Origin: a virus
Direction: 5' to 3' (one strand)
IMG/VR virus record: IMGVR_UViG_3300036760_000153
Location: 1-39,778 of that record
Length of the DNA stretch: 39,778 bases
The notes beneath the pieces are model-generated. The model searched no databases and was not told the DNA's origin. It saw only the letters and a list, made by a program, of their open reading frames with translations. Position numbers and translations under genes: made by a program. Below, in pieces: positions 2,121 to 31,543 of this stretch (within the stretch, counting starts at the first letter, position 1; each line of letters starts with the position of its first letter).

Positions 2121-2737
2121 GGCAGTGCGATCCCCTCTTTGTTGAGGCGCCAGTGCGCCACTCGATTGCACGCGAGGAAGTCCGGGAAATCCGAACGGTC
2201 CGCGTACTCCGTGATCGTGTAGGTGCCGTCCTTCTTCAGCCGCAGCGCCATCCGCCGCATTCGTGTCGTCTCGAGCATTGGTCGCGCGAGCTGGTCGTAA
2301 CCGGCGAGCTGCAGGGCGACCCAGGCAGCCAGACCGATCGAGGTCTTGAGATCGACGATCCAGCACCAGCCGTCGCGGGCGACACCGAGCCGGTCAAGTG
2401 TCCCGGCGTAGCGGAACTCCTTCGAGACCATGCTGTACTCGATGAGGGTGGGCTTGAAGCCGGTGTCCTTGAGGAACCGCAGATAGCCCTCGAGATAGCC
2501 AGCCGTCTCTTCGTAGGCTTCGTCCTTGCTCGGGTCTTCACCGAGGTCGTGGAGGGCGGTGACTCTGTGTGCGGCGCGGCCTCGTTGCGCGGCTTGGGCA
2601 AGCACGTCCGCGCCGATGCCCGAGAAATCGACGACGCCCGCGAGCGCGAGAACTTCGGTGACGCTGGGAACGCGGCGACCGTCGACGACATACTTCGAGG
2701 TATCTCGTTCGATGTAGAGCCGAGGAGCCGTCTGCAT
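2117..2737 (-). CDS. PD-(D/E)XK nuclease (RecB/Cas4-like)
   Basis: A 206-residue protein. It starts at ATG 2737 (frame TGATG with the upstream stop); a GTG three bases earlier is equally possible. Visible nuclease signature: SVTEVLALAG near residue 25, an RGRAAH motif (51-56) like the RGxxxH of Cas4/RecB-type enzymes, E100 in LIEYSMVSK, D115 in YAGTLDRLG, and D129-L-K131 in IVDLKTS. After the DLK come helices with LAGYDQLAR, the conserved tyrosine/glutamine region of this fold. Such phage enzymes are exonucleases acting in recombination or replication. The neighbouring gp3-like and coiled-coil proteins form a common phage cluster with it. Confidence 0.85.
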   Translation of the reverse strand: MQTAPRLYIERDTSKYVVDGRRVPSVTEVLALAGVVDFSGIGADVLAQAAQRGRAAHRVTALHDLGEDPSKDEAYEETAGYLEGYLRFLKDTGFKPTLIEYSMVSKEFRYAGTLDRLGVARDGWCWIVDLKTSIGLAAWVALQLAGYDQLARPMLETTRMRRMALRLKKDGTYTITEYADRSDFPDFLACNRVAHWRLNKEGIALP

Positions 2738-4155
2738 CACGCTTTCTTCGCGTTCATCGCGAACGTCAGGATTCTCCCAACATCCACCTTCTTCAGATCC
2801 CGCGTCGCCTCGACGCCGAACTTCTTCAGCACAAGCCTCAGTAACTCCGTCGGCTGCATGTCGAGCCGCGTCGCACGTTTCTTCGTCACGTCCCAGAGCT
2901 GCTCCCGCTGCTCGGCGTCGAAGTAGAGGTGCTCGTCTACGCGCGCGGCGGGGGCCGACTGCGGAGGAACAGCGGCTGAAGCCGCCCCTTCTGCGCCAGG
3001 CGCCGGGGAGAGGGAGCTCTCCGTCGGTTCCTCCGCTGCGGGTGCGGCCGGCTCTGGCACAAGGGCATGCACCTCCTCGGCGCCCCCGCTCGCAGATTCA
3101 GCGCCGCCCCCGTCGCCGGAGCTCTCCGGCTCCGTCACGTCTACGACAGGGGCGGCGTCCGCAGCCGGCTCGACCTCGACACCCGCCGCGCGGTCGCGTG
3201 CATCATTGTCGTGGTCGAACTCGGCGCGGAACTCCTCGACTTCCTCGGGCGAGAGCTCCCACGTCCGGGAGATGGTCGCCTCGAGCTTGCGAACCTCGTC
3301 TAGCATCGGCGCGCGAATCGCAAGCTGCCGGTGGACGGTCTCTAAGAGCTGCTGCGGGCCGCCCTTGAATCCAATGCGAGCGATGAGCTGCTTCGACGCA
3401 GGCTTTCCGCTCCGCGGCTGCACCGTCTGATACCCGACGCTGAAGGTCAGCGGAATCCAGGCGAGCGTGCCGCCGGTGATCCGCTTGACCATCTCCAACG
3501 ACTGCTGAATGTTCGCGATGCTGTTCCAACTCGTCGTGCGGAACTCGTAGCAGCCACCGACCGACTGCTGCGCCTGCAGGATGAACCGGAGCCGAGCGGC
3601 TGGTTTGCAGCGCGGCGGATCGCCGTCGAAGTCCGGACAGCCGGGGCCGCAGGGGCGTGCGGCAACGGTGGGGTCCCCAGATTCGCCCCAGGCCCATAAT
3701 TCCATCGGGCCGAGGATCTGAACCGTCTTGCCGTTCTTCGTCTCGCTCCGCAGCACCGTGGCGCGCTGAGCGCTCTGCATGTCCCCGTGGCAGAAGACCG
3801 TTCGGCCGCGGTAGTAGGCGAGCCGGTTCGGGAAGCAGAGCTCGATGTCGTCGAAGGGCAGCCCGATCTCCAGTTCCACGGGGAGACCGTGCTCGAACTC
3901 CTCGAGACCCGTCAGCTCGAGGATCAGCTTCGAGCGGGGGCAACCGCCGCAGGTCCGGGCGCCCTGTTGAATCAGGGTCTGCATGAGATCCACGTCGACC
4001 TCGAGTCGCCCCTGCTCGTCCCGATTGGTCGTGGTGAGCTCGATGTGGTCGTACTTGGTCGGCGGCGCCATCTTGCCCGCCTGCGCCGGGTTCGGCTCCC
4101 CGATCTTCGCGCGGCCGTACACCGGCAGTCCCTCTCGAAGCCCCTTGATCGCCAA
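2737..4155 (-). CDS. gp3-like / 'hydrolase or metal-binding' phage protein
   Basis: First gene of the leftward operon, 472 aa. The start is TTG at 4155, chosen because GGAGG lies 8 bases upstream and the product then begins with AIKGLREGLP, the family's usual N terminus. Residues about 1-280 match a phage family annotated variously as gp3-like, recombination-directionality-factor-like or hydrolase/metal-binding: AYYRG, WCYHGD-like VFCHGD, RPCGPGCPDFDGDPPRCKP, FRTTSWNSIANI, ITGGTLAWIPL. Clustered cysteines (ARTCGGCPR, CGPGC, RCKP) suggest a zinc site. A long A/P/E-rich linker (about 310-410) joins a separate C-terminal helical domain (YFDAEQREQLWDVTKKRATR). A direct role as excision factor for the integrase at 7183 is only inferred. 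Confidence 0.7.
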   Translation of the reverse strand: MAIKGLREGLPVYGRAKIGEPNPAQAGKMAPPTKYDHIELTTTNRDEQGRLEVDVDLMQTLIQQGARTCGGCPRSKLILELTGLEEFEHGLPVELEIGLPFDDIELCFPNRLAYYRGRTVFCHGDMQSAQRATVLRSETKNGKTVQILGPMELWAWGESGDPTVAARPCGPGCPDFDGDPPRCKPAARLRFILQAQQSVGGCYEFRTTSWNSIANIQQSLEMVKRITGGTLAWIPLTFSVGYQTVQPRSGKPASKQLIARIGFKGGPQQLLETVHRQLAIRAPMLDEVRKLEATISRTWELSPEEVEEFRAEFDHDNDARDRAAGVEVEPAADAAPVVDVTEPESSGDGGGAESASGGAEEVHALVPEPAAPAAEEPTESSLSPAPGAEGAASAAVPPQSAPAARVDEHLYFDAEQREQLWDVTKKRATRLDMQPTELLRLVLKKFGVEATRDLKKVDVGRILTFAMNAKKA

Positions 4156-4170
4156 CTTTCGCACCTCCAA

Positions 4171-4196
4171 AGTATCAGCGCACCCTATACCTGTAA
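4171..4196. promoter_or_regulatory. operator copy 1 (before the gp3-like gene)
   Basis: Plus strand reads AGTATCAGC, GC, ACCC, TATACCTGTAA. This is nearly identical to 11262-11288 and similar to the reverse complement of 4245-4266. The half-sites AGTATCAG and TATACCT form an imperfect dyad. It lies just upstream of the GGAGG/TTG start at 4155. On the minus strand GTTACA and TACTTT are 17 bp apart, so it could overlap the leftward promoter. Predicted repressor/Cro site. Confidence 0.6.
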
Positions 4197-4244
4197 CGTG
4201 GTCAGTGCAAGGGCAGCGCCGGCTTCTTGCGCTCGATGCGTTTC

Positions 4245-4266
4245 GGGTATAAGGTCCGCAGATGAT
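4245..4266. promoter_or_regulatory. operator copy 2 (before the Cro-like gene)
   Basis: Plus strand reads GGGTATAAGGTCCGCAGATGAT. Its reverse complement matches the other two copies at about 15 of 22 positions (CTTATACC and the ATC...GC framework), with one degenerate half-site. It lies 15 bases upstream of the ATG at 4282 and contains TATAAG, a plausible -10 for the rightward transcript. The opposite orientation to copy 1 fits a divergent control region. Confidence 0.5.
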
Positions 4267-4281
4267 CTCGGAGGGTATCGC

Positions 4282-4536
4282 ATGGTCGTGAGGGAGCATC
4301 CTGGGAAGACGCTGCGCGAGGCGGTCGGCATGTCGCAGGTCGCGTTCGCGGAGGCGATCGGGGTGACGCAGCCGCGCGTCTCGGATGTCGAGGCGGGGCA
4401 CGGGAACTACGGGCGCGACACGATCCTCTCGATCATGGGGCGGTTCCGGCAGCAGTGCATTCAGCTCGGGATCACGGCGGAGGACATGGCGCGCGGGTTA
4501 GAGGATGAGACCGACGCTCTGGTCGCGCCGAGTTGA
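4282..4536 (+). CDS. Cro/C1-type (XRE) helix-turn-helix regulator
   Basis: An 84-residue protein. The ATG at 4282 has GGAGGG 6 bases upstream. Residues 10-45 are a clear XRE helix-turn-helix: TLREAVGMSQVAFAEAIG, then VTQPRVSDVEAGHG, with the recognition helix at about residues 28-37. The remainder (YGRDTILSIMGRFRQQ) is the supporting helix set, ending in an acidic tail. It is the first gene of the rightward early operon and sits directly beside operator copies 1 and 2. It is therefore a good candidate for a Cro-like switch protein. A second HTH protein lies at 11331-11756. Confidence 0.8.
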   Translation: MVVREHPGKTLREAVGMSQVAFAEAIGVTQPRVSDVEAGHGNYGRDTILSIMGRFRQQCIQLGITAEDMARGLEDETDALVAPS

Positions 4537-4979
4537 GCCGTCGGAAGGTCATCTCGCCGGCCCTCGTCGAGTGGACATGGCTCGCGCTGCGCCAGGCGGC
4601 GGCGAGGCACGGTAAGACGTGGCGCTCCGCACTCTCCGATGCGCGGTACAAGCTGATCGAGGCGGCGCTGCGGCAGGCGTCCCCGCACGAGGTCGCACAC
4701 GCGGTAGACGGCTTCATCGCGAAGTCGAGCGACTGGACGCCGGAGATCCGCGCGAACTGTTTCAATCCGGAGTACATCCTCCGCCCGACGAAACTGGATC
4801 AGCACGTAGAGGAGGCGAATGTGCGCGCGACCGTCGCCGAACGCATGGAGACGCGGCAGAGTTTGACTACGGCGGTGCTGGCTGCCGCCGTCGCGGAGGT
4901 TTCGGTCGAGCAGAACATCGCCGAGGCGAGCGAGCTGCGTGCGCTCGGGTTCTTCGGAGAGGTCGGCGATCGTGCATGA
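4533..4979 (+). CDS. replication-organiser-like protein
   Basis: A 148-residue protein whose TTG start overlaps the previous stop (TTGA). Residues about 25-90 (YKLIEAALRQASPHEVAHAV, DGFIAKSSDWTPE, then FNPEYILRPTKLDQHVEEAN) resemble the C-terminal domain of phage replisome organisers: a lysine/arginine-rich helix, a 'Y/W...G' loop and a final 'ILR....ve.f' segment. The usual N-terminal winged helix is absent, so this is a shortened form or a diverged relative. The following gene encodes an ATPase of the helicase-loader/DnaB fold, which fits replication initiation. Assignment is by pattern and position only. Confidence 0.5.
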   Translation: MSRRKVISPALVEWTWLALRQAAARHGKTWRSALSDARYKLIEAALRQASPHEVAHAVDGFIAKSSDWTPEIRANCFNPEYILRPTKLDQHVEEANVRATVAERMETRQSLTTAVLAAAVAEVSVEQNIAEASELRALGFFGEVGDRA

Positions 4980-25110: not shown

Positions 25111-25740
25111 ATGCCGTTCGATAGCTACGCCGATCTGAAGGTGTCGGTCGCGGCCTGGGTCGACAACGATTCGCTCACGTCCGTGATCCCCGACTTCATC
25201 CGGCTCGGCGAGCTCCGGTTGCAGCGGGACCTGAAGCTCCGGTTCACGGAGGTGACAACCCTCGGGAATCTGGTCGCGCTGCAGGACTACCTGACGCTCC
25301 CGACCGGCTGCATCGAGCCGATCGCTCTGGTGCTCGAGCAGGACGCTGATCGAACGGTGAGCATCGTTGCCGAGAGCGAGTTCACGCGGGTGAAGAACGC
25401 CTACGGTGACACGGGCATCCCGCTCGTGGCGCAGTCGCGTGGTCTGACGCTCGCGCTCGCGCCCACGCCGTCGAGTGCGCTTGCCTACCGGCTGCGTGCG
25501 TGGCACGGGATCACGCCGCTTTCGGTGACGGTGACGACGAATTGGCTGCTTCAGCAGGGTCCGGACGCACTGCTCTTCGCGTCGCTGGTCGAGGCGGGCA
25601 TCTACATGGGGAGCGATGAGCGTCTAGCGACCTGGCAGCCGCGGTATGACGTTGCGATGAGCGGGCTGCGGCGGCAAGAGTTCCGCGCGCGCACGGGCGG
25701 CGGGCCGCTGCGCATGCGGAGTGACGGACTGACGCCGTGA
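25111..25740 (+). CDS. head-tail adaptor (SU10 adaptor / gp6-like)
   Basis: A 209-residue protein. The opening helices FDSYADLKVSVAAWVDNDSL, TSVIPDFIRLGELRLQRDLK are the signature of the podovirus adaptor family, where E/R-L-x-R-D-L precedes a beta domain. Strands then follow with LTLPTGCIEPIALVLEQDAD, and C-terminal helices (DALLFASLVEAGIYMGSDER). It docks beneath the portal as a ring. It overlaps the tail-hub gene start by GTGA. Confidence 0.85.
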   Translation: MPFDSYADLKVSVAAWVDNDSLTSVIPDFIRLGELRLQRDLKLRFTEVTTLGNLVALQDYLTLPTGCIEPIALVLEQDADRTVSIVAESEFTRVKNAYGDTGIPLVAQSRGLTLALAPTPSSALAYRLRAWHGITPLSVTVTTNWLLQQGPDALLFASLVEAGIYMGSDERLATWQPRYDVAMSGLRRQEFRARTGGGPLRMRSDGLTP

Positions 25741-27245
25741 GCGAGCGCGTGGCGCTTGGGAAGTGGCGTCCCGACCAGCCGACGCTAGGGGCGCCCGGGC
25801 TCTACGGCGCGAAGAACACGCTGCCCCGTGGAATTGGCTACGGTCCAATGCCTTCTCTATCTCGGCTCGCGAGCTACGGGAGCCTGGGCGCCCGCGTGCG
25901 CGGCGCGATGCACCTCACGGATTACGACGGAGCGGTTCACAACTTCGCGGGCGATGCAACGAACCTCGAGAAGATCGAGGCGGGCTCGTGGGCAGATGTC
26001 TCTCAGGCTGGAAACTACACTCTCGGAGCCAACAGCCGCTGGGAGTTCGCCGCATTCACGTCGCAGGCGGTCGGTCGTCTTCCGATGGTGATTGCGACCT
26101 GCTACGACGAGGCGGTGCAGGAGTACACGGTTGGCTTGAGCACGCTGTTCGCGGACCTGTCCGCGGCAGCGCCGCACGCGCGCCACTGCGCGGTCATCGG
26201 TCAGCAACTGCACCTCGGCTACACGAGCGATCCGGTAGACGGGAAGGTGTCCAACCGCGCCTGGTGGTCCGTGCTCGGGAATGCTGCGTCGTGGCCGACG
26301 CCTGGCAGCGATGCCGCAGTAAGCGCGCAGTCGGACACCAACGAGCTCTTCGGCGATGGCGGCGAGATCACGGCGATCATCGGCGGTTCGGAGTACGGGG
26401 TGTATTTCCAGGAGCGTGCGGTCTGGCGCGCGGACTACGTGGGCGGAGATGTGATGTACGCCTTCCGCCGCATGGAGAGCCAGCGCGGTCTCATGGTCCC
26501 GGGTCTCGCAGTCGCGTTCGGGCGGAACATTCTCTACTTCGCAGATGACGGCTGGTACGTGTTCGACGGGGTTGGGTCGCGTGCGGTGGGGAAGGACGTC
26601 TGCGATGACTGGTTCCGCCGCGATTTTCAGTTCGAGTTCCGGAGTCGTGTATCGACGATGGTAGACCCGGACGCGCCGATCATCCACATCGGCTACACGG
26701 GAGTTGGACACCAGAACGGCGTGCCGAATCACGTCCTGCACTACAACTACCTGCGGGACTCGTTCTCGTGGAGCGAGATCGAGCACGACTATCTCTGCTC
26801 CGTGGTGAACCCTGGTCCGAGCATGTCGATGGATCGGTCGCCGTCGCCGGTTCCGGATGAGCTGGCTGACTCCTGGGATGACGTGCAGACGGCCACGCGG
26901 GTTGCCGGTGCGTTCGACTCTGGGCACTACCTCGCAACGCTGTCAGGCTCAGCACTGGCGGCCGAGTTCGAGACGGGCGACTTCGAGCTCGCGCCGGGTC
27001 GCCGGTCGAATCTGCAGTCGGTGCGCCCGATCGTCACGGGCGGGACGGCGACGGTCGCGGTGGCGGGCACGGCGACGCGCGCGGAGGTGCCGTCGTTCGG
27101 CTCTTCGGTGGCGCTGGATTCGACGGGGAAGGCGAACATGCGCAAGGGAGCGCGCTATCACCGCTTGAAGCTCGGGGTCGGTAGCGGCTGGATGGGGGAT
27201 GCGATCGCGATGGACTGCGAGTTCTCGCCGGCTGGGCTTCGGTAG
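25737..27245 (+). CDS. tail hub / DNA stabilisation protein (P22 gp10-like)
   Basis: A 502-residue protein, GTG start in GTGA overlap. It is rich in short beta strands with WSVLGNAASWPTPGSDAAVS, ITAIIGGSEYGVYFQERAVW, the repeated W-x-Y or F-D-G turns (FADDGWYVFDGVGSRAVGKD) and LHYNYLRDSFSWSEIEHDYL. These are hallmarks of the phage stabilisation/nozzle family related to P22 gp10. It forms the tail tube tip below the adaptor and holds the packaged DNA. The ending AMDCEFSPAGLR is also typical of the family. Confidence 0.85.
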   Translation: MSERVALGKWRPDQPTLGAPGLYGAKNTLPRGIGYGPMPSLSRLASYGSLGARVRGAMHLTDYDGAVHNFAGDATNLEKIEAGSWADVSQAGNYTLGANSRWEFAAFTSQAVGRLPMVIATCYDEAVQEYTVGLSTLFADLSAAAPHARHCAVIGQQLHLGYTSDPVDGKVSNRAWWSVLGNAASWPTPGSDAAVSAQSDTNELFGDGGEITAIIGGSEYGVYFQERAVWRADYVGGDVMYAFRRMESQRGLMVPGLAVAFGRNILYFADDGWYVFDGVGSRAVGKDVCDDWFRRDFQFEFRSRVSTMVDPDAPIIHIGYTGVGHQNGVPNHVLHYNYLRDSFSWSEIEHDYLCSVVNPGPSMSMDRSPSPVPDELADSWDDVQTATRVAGAFDSGHYLATLSGSALAAEFETGDFELAPGRRSNLQSVRPIVTGGTATVAVAGTATRAEVPSFGSSVALDSTGKANMRKGARYHRLKLGVGSGWMGDAIAMDCEFSPAGLR

Positions 27246-27247
27246 GG

Positions 27248-29098
27248 ATGGCGAATCGGTTCACGACAGTACCTCTGGACGAACCGGAGTGGCGTGGATG
27301 GAGTCGACGACTCGCACTCGCGATCAACGGGCTCTTCGAGGGGAAGAGCAACAACACGTTCGAGGTGACGCTCGCGGTCGCGCCGGCGACGACAACTGTG
27401 ATTGCGAAGTCACGGATCACGCCCGACACGAAAATCTTCCTCATGGCGAAGACGGCCAATGCTGCCGCCGCTGTCGCCGGGTTGTACGCCACCGCTGCAG
27501 CGGGAGCCATTACTCTGACCCACAGCGCGAGTGCCGCGGTCGATAGGACGTTTGCTTACATCCTCGTCGGGTGTGTGGTCGCCGGCCTTCTGATCTGCGG
27601 CGATGCGCAGGCGCAGCGGTATTACGACGAGGGTGTGAAACTCGGCTTCCGTGACAAGATTGATTTCACGGGCGGCGGCGTGACGTGTACGGCGAGTACC
27701 GAGTGGATCACCTGCGATGTCCCAGCCGGAGCGGGCGGCGGCGAGGCGAACACGTCGTCGAGCGCGGGCGGCGGCTTGGCGGTGACGAAGGCGAAGGTCG
27801 GCGTCAACCTGCCGTTTGCGAGCTTCAGCGCCACGGACTTCGACCTTGCGGCGGACCTGTTCACGATCGACGCAACGCTCGCGCGCGACGCAGAGGTCGC
27901 TGCTGGCTACCAGCCGCTCGACGCCGATCTGACTTCGATCGCTGCGCTGACCACGACCGCTACCGGGCGTGGCCTACTCGACGATGCCGATGCGACTGCG
28001 TTGAGAGTGTCGATCGGTGCCGTGATCGGAACGGACGTGCAAGCGTGGGACGCCGATCTCAATTCCATCGCAGCTCTCACGACCACCGCCGCCGGGCGCG
28101 GCCTGCTCGACGATGCTGACGCATCGGCGCTGCGGACTTCGATCGGTGCCGTCATCGACACCAACGTGCAAGCCTGGGACGCTGACCTCGATTCTATCGC
28201 TGCTCTCGCGACGACGGCGACCGGGCGCGGCCTGCTCGACGATGCTGACGCATCGGCGCTGCGGACTTCGATCGGTGCCGTCATCGGCACCAACGTGCAA
28301 GCCTGGGACGCTGACCTCGACGATCTCGCCGATGGCTCGCTCACGGGCAGCAAGGTCGCCGCGATTCCCGATGCGAGCATCACGCCTGCGTACTCGGGCG
28401 TTGCTGCGTGCGGCGCGAATACCTGGGCGTCCACGCTCAACCGCAACGCGGTCCCGACCTGCACGCAGCCCGCGTTCTCAAACATCTCCGGCACGGTCGC
28501 GATCGGGCAGGGCGGCACGACCGAGACAGCCTCGGCCGAGGACGCGGTGCTGGTCGGCGCGTCCACGACGGACTGGCAGCCGAAGACACTCCCGAGCTGC
28601 TCCGCCGCGACGACCTCCAAGCTGCTCTACGACAACTCCGCGAACACGTTCTCGTGCGGCACGGATAACACGGGACGCACGCTGCTGCGCGTCACGGGTG
28701 ACGTTGCCAACTCGACGCTCAACTTTGCCGACGTGACGGGTCTGACGATGGCCGTGTCTGCCAGCACGACCTACTACTTCGACTGCAAACTGACGTACAC
28801 CACAGCGACGAGCACCACCGCGCTCCAGCTCAGCGTCAACGGGCCAGCCGTCACCGCGCTCGACTACGGTGTCGAGATCGCAACCACGACCGCCATTCCT
28901 TTCTACTCCGCGCAAACCGCATACGACACCAACACGAATCCGGGCACGGGCGGCGGTGCAACGCGGCTCACGGCGCAAATTCACGGCTCGGTCATCATCG
29001 CGGGAGCCGGTGGTACGTTCGCGATCCGGTCGAGAAGCGAAGTCAACGCGAGTGCGGCAACAGTCAAACGCGGCTCGTGGTGTCAGGTGTCATTGTGA
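27248..29098 (+). CDS. tail fibre-like protein, apparent fusion of two genes
   Basis: 616 aa in one frame. Residues 1-108 resemble a small stand-alone phage structural protein of about 100 aa (LDEPEWRGWSRRLALAINGL ... TLTHSASAAVDRTFAYILVG), which as I remember usually stops after a final V-G. Here TGT at 27572 is where a stop would be expected. Residues 110-125 (VVAGLLICGDAQAQ) look like the signal sequence of a separate exported fibre gene starting at GTG 27575. Then follow a GGGVTC domain, three 43-residue repeats (residues 225-358), and a C-terminal beta domain (VTGDVANSTLNFADVTGLTM). Likely receptor-binding or side fibre. Confidence 0.75.
   Translation: MANRFTTVPLDEPEWRGWSRRLALAINGLFEGKSNNTFEVTLAVAPATTTVIAKSRITPDTKIFLMAKTANAAAAVAGLYATAAAGAITLTHSASAAVDRTFAYILVGCVVAGLLICGDAQAQRYYDEGVKLGFRDKIDFTGGGVTCTASTEWITCDVPAGAGGGEANTSSSAGGGLAVTKAKVGVNLPFASFSATDFDLAADLFTIDATLARDAEVAAGYQPLDADLTSIAALTTTATGRGLLDDADATALRVSIGAVIGTDVQAWDADLNSIAALTTTAAGRGLLDDADASALRTSIGAVIDTNVQAWDADLDSIAALATTATGRGLLDDADASALRTSIGAVIGTNVQAWDADLDDLADGSLTGSKVAAIPDASITPAYSGVAACGANTWASTLNRNAVPTCTQPAFSNISGTVAIGQGGTTETASAEDAVLVGASTTDWQPKTLPSCSAATTSKLLYDNSANTFSCGTDNTGRTLLRVTGDVANSTLNFADVTGLTMAVSASTTYYFDCKLTYTTATSTTALQLSVNGPAVTALDYGVEIATTTAIPFYSAQTAYDTNTNPGTGGGATRLTAQIHGSVIIAGAGGTFAIRSRSEVNASAATVKRGSWCQVSL
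27920..28320 (+). repeat. 129-bp in-frame tandem repeats in the tail fibre gene
   Basis: Three copies begin at 27920, 28049 and 28178, and a partial fourth begins at 28307. Each encodes DADLxSIAALxTTAxGRGLL, DDADAxALRxSIGAVIxTxV, QAW. The second and third copies are almost identical from about 28090 to 28330, which points to recent unequal exchange. The DDADA-SIGA pattern is common in phage fibre shafts. Confidence 0.9.
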
Positions 29099-29508
29099 GC
29101 GAGAAGCTCGAGCTCATCCGTGTTCCTCCGGAAGAGGTTGACGATCTGTGGCCTCTGATCGAGCCGTTAGTCGCGAAATCTCTGAAGCGCGCGTGCGGGC
29201 GAGTGAGCTTGGCGTCGCTGCGCGAGGGCGCGATGGCGGGGCACTACGGCATTTTTCTCGTTGGCGGTCCCGGCTATGGGGTTGTCGCGGTGGCGGCGAC
29301 TGAGATCCTGGTGTTCCCGGCCAAGCGGGTTCTGTCGGTGTTCCTTTACAGCGGCGAACGACGGCAAGCGATGCACCTATGGCCTAAAGTGTACGAACAC
29401 GCGCGCGAGATGGGGTGTTCCGAGGTTCAGATCGCGGGGCCGAAAGCATGGGGCAAGCTCTTCCCAGACTTCCGGGCGGAGTTCATCGTGTACACAAAGG
29501 AGGTCTGA
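29095..29508 (+). CDS. GNAT-like protein of the tail locus, 137 aa
   Basis: GTG at 29095 overlaps the fibre stop (GTGA). The sequence follows an acetyltransferase-like order: VPPEEVDDLWPLIEPLVAKS, a GHYGIFLVGGPGYGVVAVAA strand pair, TEILVFPAKRVLSVFLYSGE, a helix with MHLWPKVYEHAREMGCSEVQ, and FPDFRAEFIVYTKE. Phages often carry such a gene between fibre and internal-protein genes. The acetyl-CoA pyrophosphate loop (Q/RxxGxG/A) is not clear, so it may have lost catalysis. Confidence 0.65.
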   Translation: MSEKLELIRVPPEEVDDLWPLIEPLVAKSLKRACGRVSLASLREGAMAGHYGIFLVGGPGYGVVAVAATEILVFPAKRVLSVFLYSGERRQAMHLWPKVYEHAREMGCSEVQIAGPKAWGKLFPDFRAEFIVYTKEV

Positions 29509-30289: not shown

Positions 30290-31543
30290 ATGTGGGCAGC
30301 ACTGATCCCTTTTCTCATCAGTCTCTTCACGCGCGCAGCGCCTGCGGCTGGCGCGGCTGGCGCGGCTGGCGCGGCTGGCGCGGCTGGTGCGGCTGGCGCG
30401 GCTGGCGCGGCTGGCGCGGCTGGTGCGGCTGGTGGGTCCGCAGCACTCGGGTCCACAGCACTCTCCGGGGTGAGCGCACTCTCCGGTGGGGCCGCGCTGC
30501 CGGCAGCAGCAGCAACGAAGGTTCCCTACGCGCTGCCGGCGGCTGCGGGCGCGAGTGCGATCCCGGCCGCGACGACGGTTCCCTACGCGCTGCCGGCAGC
30601 AGCGGGTTCGGCTGTTCCTGCGGCAACTCAGCAGGGCTTCGGGGCTGGCCTCTGGAATGCGCTGAAGGCGGCCGGCAAGGAGCAGCTTGACCCGGCCAAG
30701 CGAGTCCTCGGTGCGATCACGGGAGGAGGCGGTCGTGGTGGAAGTCAACCTGATGCCTCGACGACTGAGAAGCCTGGATTCCTCAGCCGCACGAAGACCG
30801 GCTTCGAGAACGCCATGCTCGGCCCAGAGGGGCAGAGCCTCACTGGATCTGCGCGAAACGAAGCGTTGTGGCGGACCAGGCTGGCGGCGATCGGGGCTGG
30901 CCTAAGCGGTCGCGGGGTGGGTGGCGCCCTGCTCACGGGGCTGCAAGTAGGCCCAGGATACGCTCGCGATGCCGGGTTCTCTAGCTGGATCGGGGATCAG
31001 ATCGCAAGCGCGAAGACGCCAGAGGACAAGGCGCGCTGGCAAGCCATGCAGCAGACGGGCACGGACGTGCTGCGCCCGCGTGAAGCTGCGCGGAATACGA
31101 CGACGCAGGAGCCGGACCCCGAGAATCCGGGGATGGCGCGGATGGTCACGCGCGATCCGCAATCGGTCATCATCACCCGCGGCGAGCCGTTCGCGCGGTA
31201 CAAGAAGCCGAGGGATACCGTCGACTCGAGCGCGCGGACGATGCGTGCGCGGAACTACTTCCTGAGCCTGCCGCCGGCCGAGCGCGACGGGTTACAGTTC
31301 CGGTTCCCTGCGTTGTGGACGACGGCGACGAAGGCGGATGAAGGGCTTGAGCCTTTCATGGCGGCGATGAACCAGCAAACGCCGGCTGCGCCGGAGAACA
31401 CGGGGCCGGGTGCCATCGGACGCGGCTGGGACCAACTCAAGGACTGGTGGAAAGACGACGCGCCGAATCAAAGCGTCGATCCCGGTGCCGTGTCCGAGGA
31501 GGAGCGTATGCGTCGGATTCGCGAGAAGTACGCTCCGCGGTAA
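30290..31543 (+). CDS. virion protein with membrane anchor and (GAA)9 repeat
   Basis: A 417-residue protein. Residues 1-17 are hydrophobic (MWAALIPFLISLFTRAA), then nine perfect G-A-A triplets (residues 21-47), and a duplicated VPYALPAAAG...PAAT unit (about 78-116). Next is a helical domain (FGAGLWNALKAAGKEQLDPA), a linker (ARNTTTQEPDPENPGMARMV) and a charged C terminus ending RMRRIREKYAPR. Between an ejection-type protein and the giant virion protein, it is probably an ejected or internal protein. The G-x-x repeat may give a collagen-like or flexible stalk. Confidence 0.65.
   Translation: MWAALIPFLISLFTRAAPAAGAAGAAGAAGAAGAAGAAGAAGAAGAAGGSAALGSTALSGVSALSGGAALPAAAATKVPYALPAAAGASAIPAATTVPYALPAAAGSAVPAATQQGFGAGLWNALKAAGKEQLDPAKRVLGAITGGGGRGGSQPDASTTEKPGFLSRTKTGFENAMLGPEGQSLTGSARNEALWRTRLAAIGAGLSGRGVGGALLTGLQVGPGYARDAGFSSWIGDQIASAKTPEDKARWQAMQQTGTDVLRPREAARNTTTQEPDPENPGMARMVTRDPQSVIITRGEPFARYKKPRDTVDSSARTMRARNYFLSLPPAERDGLQFRFPALWTTATKADEGLEPFMAAMNQQTPAAPENTGPGAIGRGWDQLKDWWKDDAPNQSVDPGAVSEEERMRRIREKYAPR
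30350..30430 (+). repeat. 9-bp tandem repeat (nine units)
   Basis: Nine GGC-GCG-GCT-like units (GGCGCGGCT with GGTGCGGCT variants) in phase with codons, encoding (Gly-Ala-Ala)9. Only a C/T change at the third base varies between units, so the array looks young and prone to slippage. It is flanked by similar but imperfect triplets. Confidence 0.9.

Follow-up and report, generated by a model that had tools for sequence, protein, structure and literature searches.

The window analysed here is the full IMG/VR virus record IMGVR_UViG_3300036760_000153 (39,778 bases), whose structural region includes the portal, scaffold and major head genes, and in which several neighbouring structural genes lie 1–2 nt apart or overlap by 4 nt. 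The locus of interest comprises the following features:

25737–27245, plus strand: P22 gp10-like nozzle/DNA-stabilisation protein gene (phrog_3287, E 1.4e-36), 2 nt upstream of the putatively fused open reading frame
27248–29098, plus strand: putatively fused open reading frame of 616 aa (small tail-protein domain, leader and fibre), with no stop in 616 codons
27248–27571, plus strand: small tail-protein domain of 108 codons, which usually forms a gene of its own that ends at an aligned Gly (profile built without the window, E 9e-23)
27572–27574, plus strand: TGT codon where relatives have a stop codon (TGT accounts for 4 of the 5297 codons of 11 main ORFs)
27575–27616, plus strand: GTG codon and truncated signal-peptide-like leader (VVAGLLICGDAQA/Q; 13 residues, no K or R)
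27617–27733, plus strand: fibre leader domain (RYYDEGVKLGF...VPAGAGGGE), not shared with contig L001 (IMGVR_UViG_3300036760_000102)
27734–29101, plus strand: fibre body, matching at 87–89% DNA identity a fibre gene of L001 that is separate and has a signal peptide
27934–28320, plus strand: 129-nt tandem repeat (unit of 43 aa, QAWDADL...GRGLLDDADASALRTSIGAVIGTN) within the fibre
29095–29508, plus strand: GNAT-like acyltransferase gene (HMM built without the window, E 3.9e-21), whose GTG start overlaps the fibre stop (GTGA)

An earlier sequence-only reading had observed that the frame stays open through TGT 27572–27574 and that a GTG follows at 27575, and the sequence bears this out: the seam reads ...ATC CTC GTC GGG TGT GTG GTC GCC... 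in one frame, while the forward frames other than that of the ORF are both full of stops. The same reading noted that TGT is one base from TGA; the point is weak alone, as 23% of this phage's codons lie a single step from a stop, but TGT itself is rare. Start-like codons make up 5.7% (11 main ORFs). A Pfam search gave no match above the cut-off. The most hydrophobic 19-residue segment of the fused protein (mean 2.1) lies around RTFAYILVGCVVAGLLICG, where the small domain's last strand and the leader together form a stretch that is odd for a soluble virion protein and counts against a fusion.

The upstream gene, which we take to be tied to P22 gp10, has relatives in 14 phage records, where they are named stabilisation or nozzle protein; a pattern search with the nozzle protein matched no viral contig. 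Twelve of these records were opened, and in seven of them a relative of the small gene lies directly after the nozzle gene, the other five having no profile match at that place. In three of the seven (L084, L090, L091) the small-family protein has the usual ending and a long insert in its middle. In Methylophilales phage Venkman (gp48), Bradyrhizobium phage ppBeUSDA76-2 (WAX24421.1) and the uncultured ctDrO704, the gene stands alone in the same position after the nozzle gene, is homologous over the whole 108 aa and ends at a conserved Gly with the GNAT gene directly next, whereas the frame in the window continues into the fibre. Used as the sole query, the 108 window residues found nothing in viral contigs or phage records, and a profile built from the phage-record relatives was needed.

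Residues 1–108 match the family profile built without the window over profile positions 1–106, and this whole-domain match, together with the place directly after the nozzle gene, assigns them to the small tail-protein family. Aligned with 24 viral-contig relatives, they are 28–41% identical. The expectation of a stand-alone family ending at ILVG proved real: among 94 relatives, 90 stop exactly after the Gly matching G108, two stop one residue later (GP, then stop), two one residue earlier, and none reads through. These 94 consist of 80 IMG/VR loci fetched with a profile of the short family members (the best 80 of 117 confirmed, with 54 distinct proteins among the 80), six viral contigs, one bacterial contig and seven phage records. 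The peptide pattern in the scan that gave the 80 loci did not include the stop, that of a second viral scan did not contain the glycine, and a scan of bacterial genomes was run too; the seven added contigs (six viral, one Bradyrhizobium) comprise three that stop after the Gly, two with GP and then a stop, and two that stop one codon earlier. All three stop codons are used right after the aligned Gly in the best 80 of the 117 loci (TAA 32, TAG 26, TGA 22). The ORF in the window does not end at this conserved final Gly. A fusion as the norm of the family was rejected on the same count of 0/94, and a single long gene as the consistent state, which would have spoken against a joining of two genes, was looked for among the 94 relatives and not found. 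That the fibre contains the small domain again was likewise rejected (the profile's second match has an independent E of 380). In the two relatives that stop early (L195, L196), the small domain forms the C-terminus of another protein, of 190 aa.

With a GNAT profile that left the window out, a GNAT gene was detected downstream of the small gene in 76 of the 80 loci, within ~50 nt of the small gene's stop in 73; in L134, L136 and L141 it follows after 550–950 nt of other sequence. The remaining four loci comprise two that break off within 100 nt (L108, L168) and two with other sequence at this place (L095, L162). A different gene sits between the small gene and GNAT in L213, and the window has 507 fibre codons at this point. 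The slot therefore takes up extra genes now and then; the interval is a variable slot, and the fibre of the window is an insertion in it. Since the nozzle–small gene–GNAT order is the same as in relatives, with the fibre exactly between the last two, a chimeric join of the contig is unlikely. The closest relatives by major head protein (L216, 51%; L217, 38%) have no profile match to the small gene, and thus do not show the ancestral state.

The inserted part is homologous to fibre proteins, with a match to the tail fibre family phrog_24210 (E 1.1e-4) and 82% protein identity to the L001 fibre over window residues 163–616. The block shared with L001 is bounded at 27734 and 29101, ending at the stop and the overlapping next start with the same overlap in both, and no DNA match between the window and L001 was found outside the fibre. 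Of the 453 codons that align, 334 match exactly, 77 carry synonymous differences and 42 nonsynonymous ones, from which we infer that the fibre protein is under purifying selection. L001 encodes the fibre separately, from its own start (GTG 4866) and with a full signal peptide (VRGRLALMLLLIVPLYAHA/Q); the window fibre has no such start with a complete signal peptide. Alignment with relatives, proposed by the sequence-only reading as a check, thus finds both sides as separate genes elsewhere: no small gene out of 94 reads on, and the L001 fibre has its own GTG and signal peptide. The 129-nt tandem repeat has more copies in L001 than in the window, so that copy number varies between phages. Signal-peptide-led, fibre-like genes also occur in many environmental phage contigs and, judged by eye, in Bradyrhizobium phage ppBdUSDA122-1 (WAX24263.1); the loci are L002, L004, L005, L007, L014, L047, L048, L059, L063 and L067, and also L271 at 2163–4760.

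Translation from GTG 27575 would yield the leader MVAGLLICGDAQA/Q. The stretch had been described as signal-peptide-like, which holds for its cleavage-like AQA/Q end but not for the rest if this GTG is the start, as 13 residues are too short and K or R is missing. Twelve fibre signal peptides picked by eye from a separate set of 80 loci measure 19–24 residues with at least one K or R each, and against the L001 peptide the leader is ~6 residues shorter and lacks the positive n-region. A simple signal-peptide rule was passed by 18/78 fibre ORFs and by 62/756 other ORFs in the same loci, a crude measure in which two or more passes are doubtful (L026 and L036 among them) and L001 is scored from a start other than GTG 4866; the window leader fails it, and the fibre has no complete signal peptide of its own. 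The leader therefore looks like a signal-peptide stub, and separate export of the fibre from this GTG is unlikely. These values bear on the suggestion that two products arise, the long fusion and a separately exported fibre made by internal initiation at GTG 27575. The GTG is in frame and the leader has its AQA/Q end, as such a scheme would need, but the Shine-Dalgarno energy at this codon (−2.2 kcal/mol) is equalled or beaten by 69% of the 652 GTGs in the window, the 13-residue leader is uncharged, and it fails a rule that fibre ORFs elsewhere can pass. Although comparably weak energies occur at some accepted starts (scaffold −2.6, the 1800-aa ORF −3.0 kcal/mol), internal initiation finds little support here, and we regard dual products as very improbable.

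The viral collection, which may omit records very near the window, yielded no other assembly of the junction, so that one wrong base could produce the same frame. If base 27574 were a base-calling or assembly error and the true codon TGA, the small gene would end as in its relatives and the fibre would be made separately from GTG 27575 by translational coupling. The absence of read-through in all 94 relatives is what this explanation predicts, as is a very rare codon one step from TGA with GTG directly next, and the junction is supported by no second contig. However, the fibre would then begin with an uncharged 13-residue stub behind a weak ribosome-binding site, and the prior chance of a single error at just that base would be low. 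We consider an error fairly unlikely, if the most serious challenge to a real fusion.

The short leader also invites a different account of a real fusion, in which recombination within the incoming fibre's signal peptide replaced stop, start and n-region in one step and the TGT was never a TGA. The ~6 residues missing relative to L001, positive n-region included, fit such a seam, as does the contrast with the 12 hand-picked peptides of 19–24 residues with K or R, and phage mosaicism is evident at the locus in the bounded block shared with L001. It would, however, take chance to place TGT (4/5297) at the stop position with GTG next and the small domain kept to its last residue, and we hold a one-step junction to be doubtful, more so than a base error.

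The explanation we prefer, with a confidence only a little beyond even, is that the ORF is a real in-frame gene fusion, in which a fibre gene was inserted between the small tail gene and the acyltransferase gene and the stop of the small gene was lost; with that stop gone, one protein of 616 residues is predicted to be made. The intact end of the small domain, the rarity of TGT, the GTG next to it and the close packing of the genes all favour a former TGA/GTG arrangement, while the short uncharged leader speaks against a fully working fibre gene ever having started at GTG 27575. The two observations agree if a fibre that carried only a stub landed first and the stop was lost later. First, the fibre cassette would have come to lie directly behind the stop of the small gene, keeping only its GTG-started signal-peptide stub, and so would no longer have been a good Sec substrate; second, the stop would have changed from TGA to TGT, joining small gene and fibre. 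A single TGA-to-TGT change had been proposed from the sequence alone, and of that proposal the joining in frame of two genes that are separate elsewhere stands; the base change itself is probably the most economical route to it. The viral collection showed no near relative that has TGA here, and neither the same fusion nor the ancestral TGA/GTG arrangement was seen in any relative.

Under the gene-fusion reading, the small protein, placed at the tail, would carry the fibre as a C-terminal extension and so hold it on the virion, in place of a fibre made as a separate protein with its own signal peptide. Tail attachment through the N-terminal small domain is suggested by gene position. A fusion, with a formerly separate fibre tethered to the tail, is the best reading of the locus, and both the synthesis of the fused product and its presence in virions are predictions from it. 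A further step, that this marks a change of delivery route, whereby a member of a fibre class with Sec signal peptides, possibly exported, lost its signal peptide here and, once fused to a small tail protein, came to be held at the tail, strikes us as unlikely.

The small domain itself is intact. In a structure model of residues 1–187, mean pLDDT per ten-residue block is 77–90 over residues 11–110, except for 68 at 31–40, and the model is unreliable at residues 111 to 142; the predicted fold is good to about residue 108, with a last strand at 100–107, so its end could accommodate an extension. The best match to this predicted fold, over residues 34–108, is the C-terminal beta domain of tailspikes: VIA-align gave Z 6.9 over 67 residues for Klebsiella phage K64-1 S2-4, 5.9 for cyanophage Pam1 and 5.4 for Sf6, and Foldseek likewise ranks tailspike domains first (best E 0.046). 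Z values below 8 are middling, and the likeness is therefore a lead only; a five-sequence profile matched Pam1 weakly (E 0.4), and a larger profile gave no match. The match falls close to the chain end in the three spikes, whereas in the window the domain precedes the fibre. If the likeness is right, a domain that caps a spike, or stands alone elsewhere, here stands before a fibre.

That phages evolve by joining tail-associated modules to fibres is known (PMC8262889, PMC10408124); among the papers listed by a literature search, none was on point. Like modular receptor-binding proteins with an N-terminal tail anchor, the ORF has a putatively tail-associated N-terminal part and an exchangeable fibre part; it differs from them in that the N-terminal part stands alone in relatives and that a signal-peptide stub lies at the seam. 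On the fusion reading, the locus is a clear but fairly ordinary case of phages building new fibres by joining parts, whose points of interest are the loss of a strictly conserved end and the stub left at the seam. If true, the fusion would be well bounded, with both parents known as separate genes, a seam of a single codon and one parent whose end is strictly conserved, and would offer a testable route by which a free fibre gains a tail anchor. It also draws attention to environmental phage fibres with signal peptides as a group.

Repeats occur elsewhere in the window as well. Near its left end, positions 210–443 hold an irregular GC-rich repeat with units of 9–42 bases, and at 30344–30432 a nine-base repeat (GCGGCTGGC) in ~10 copies encodes Ala-Gly-Ala runs in the ORF at 30290–31543.
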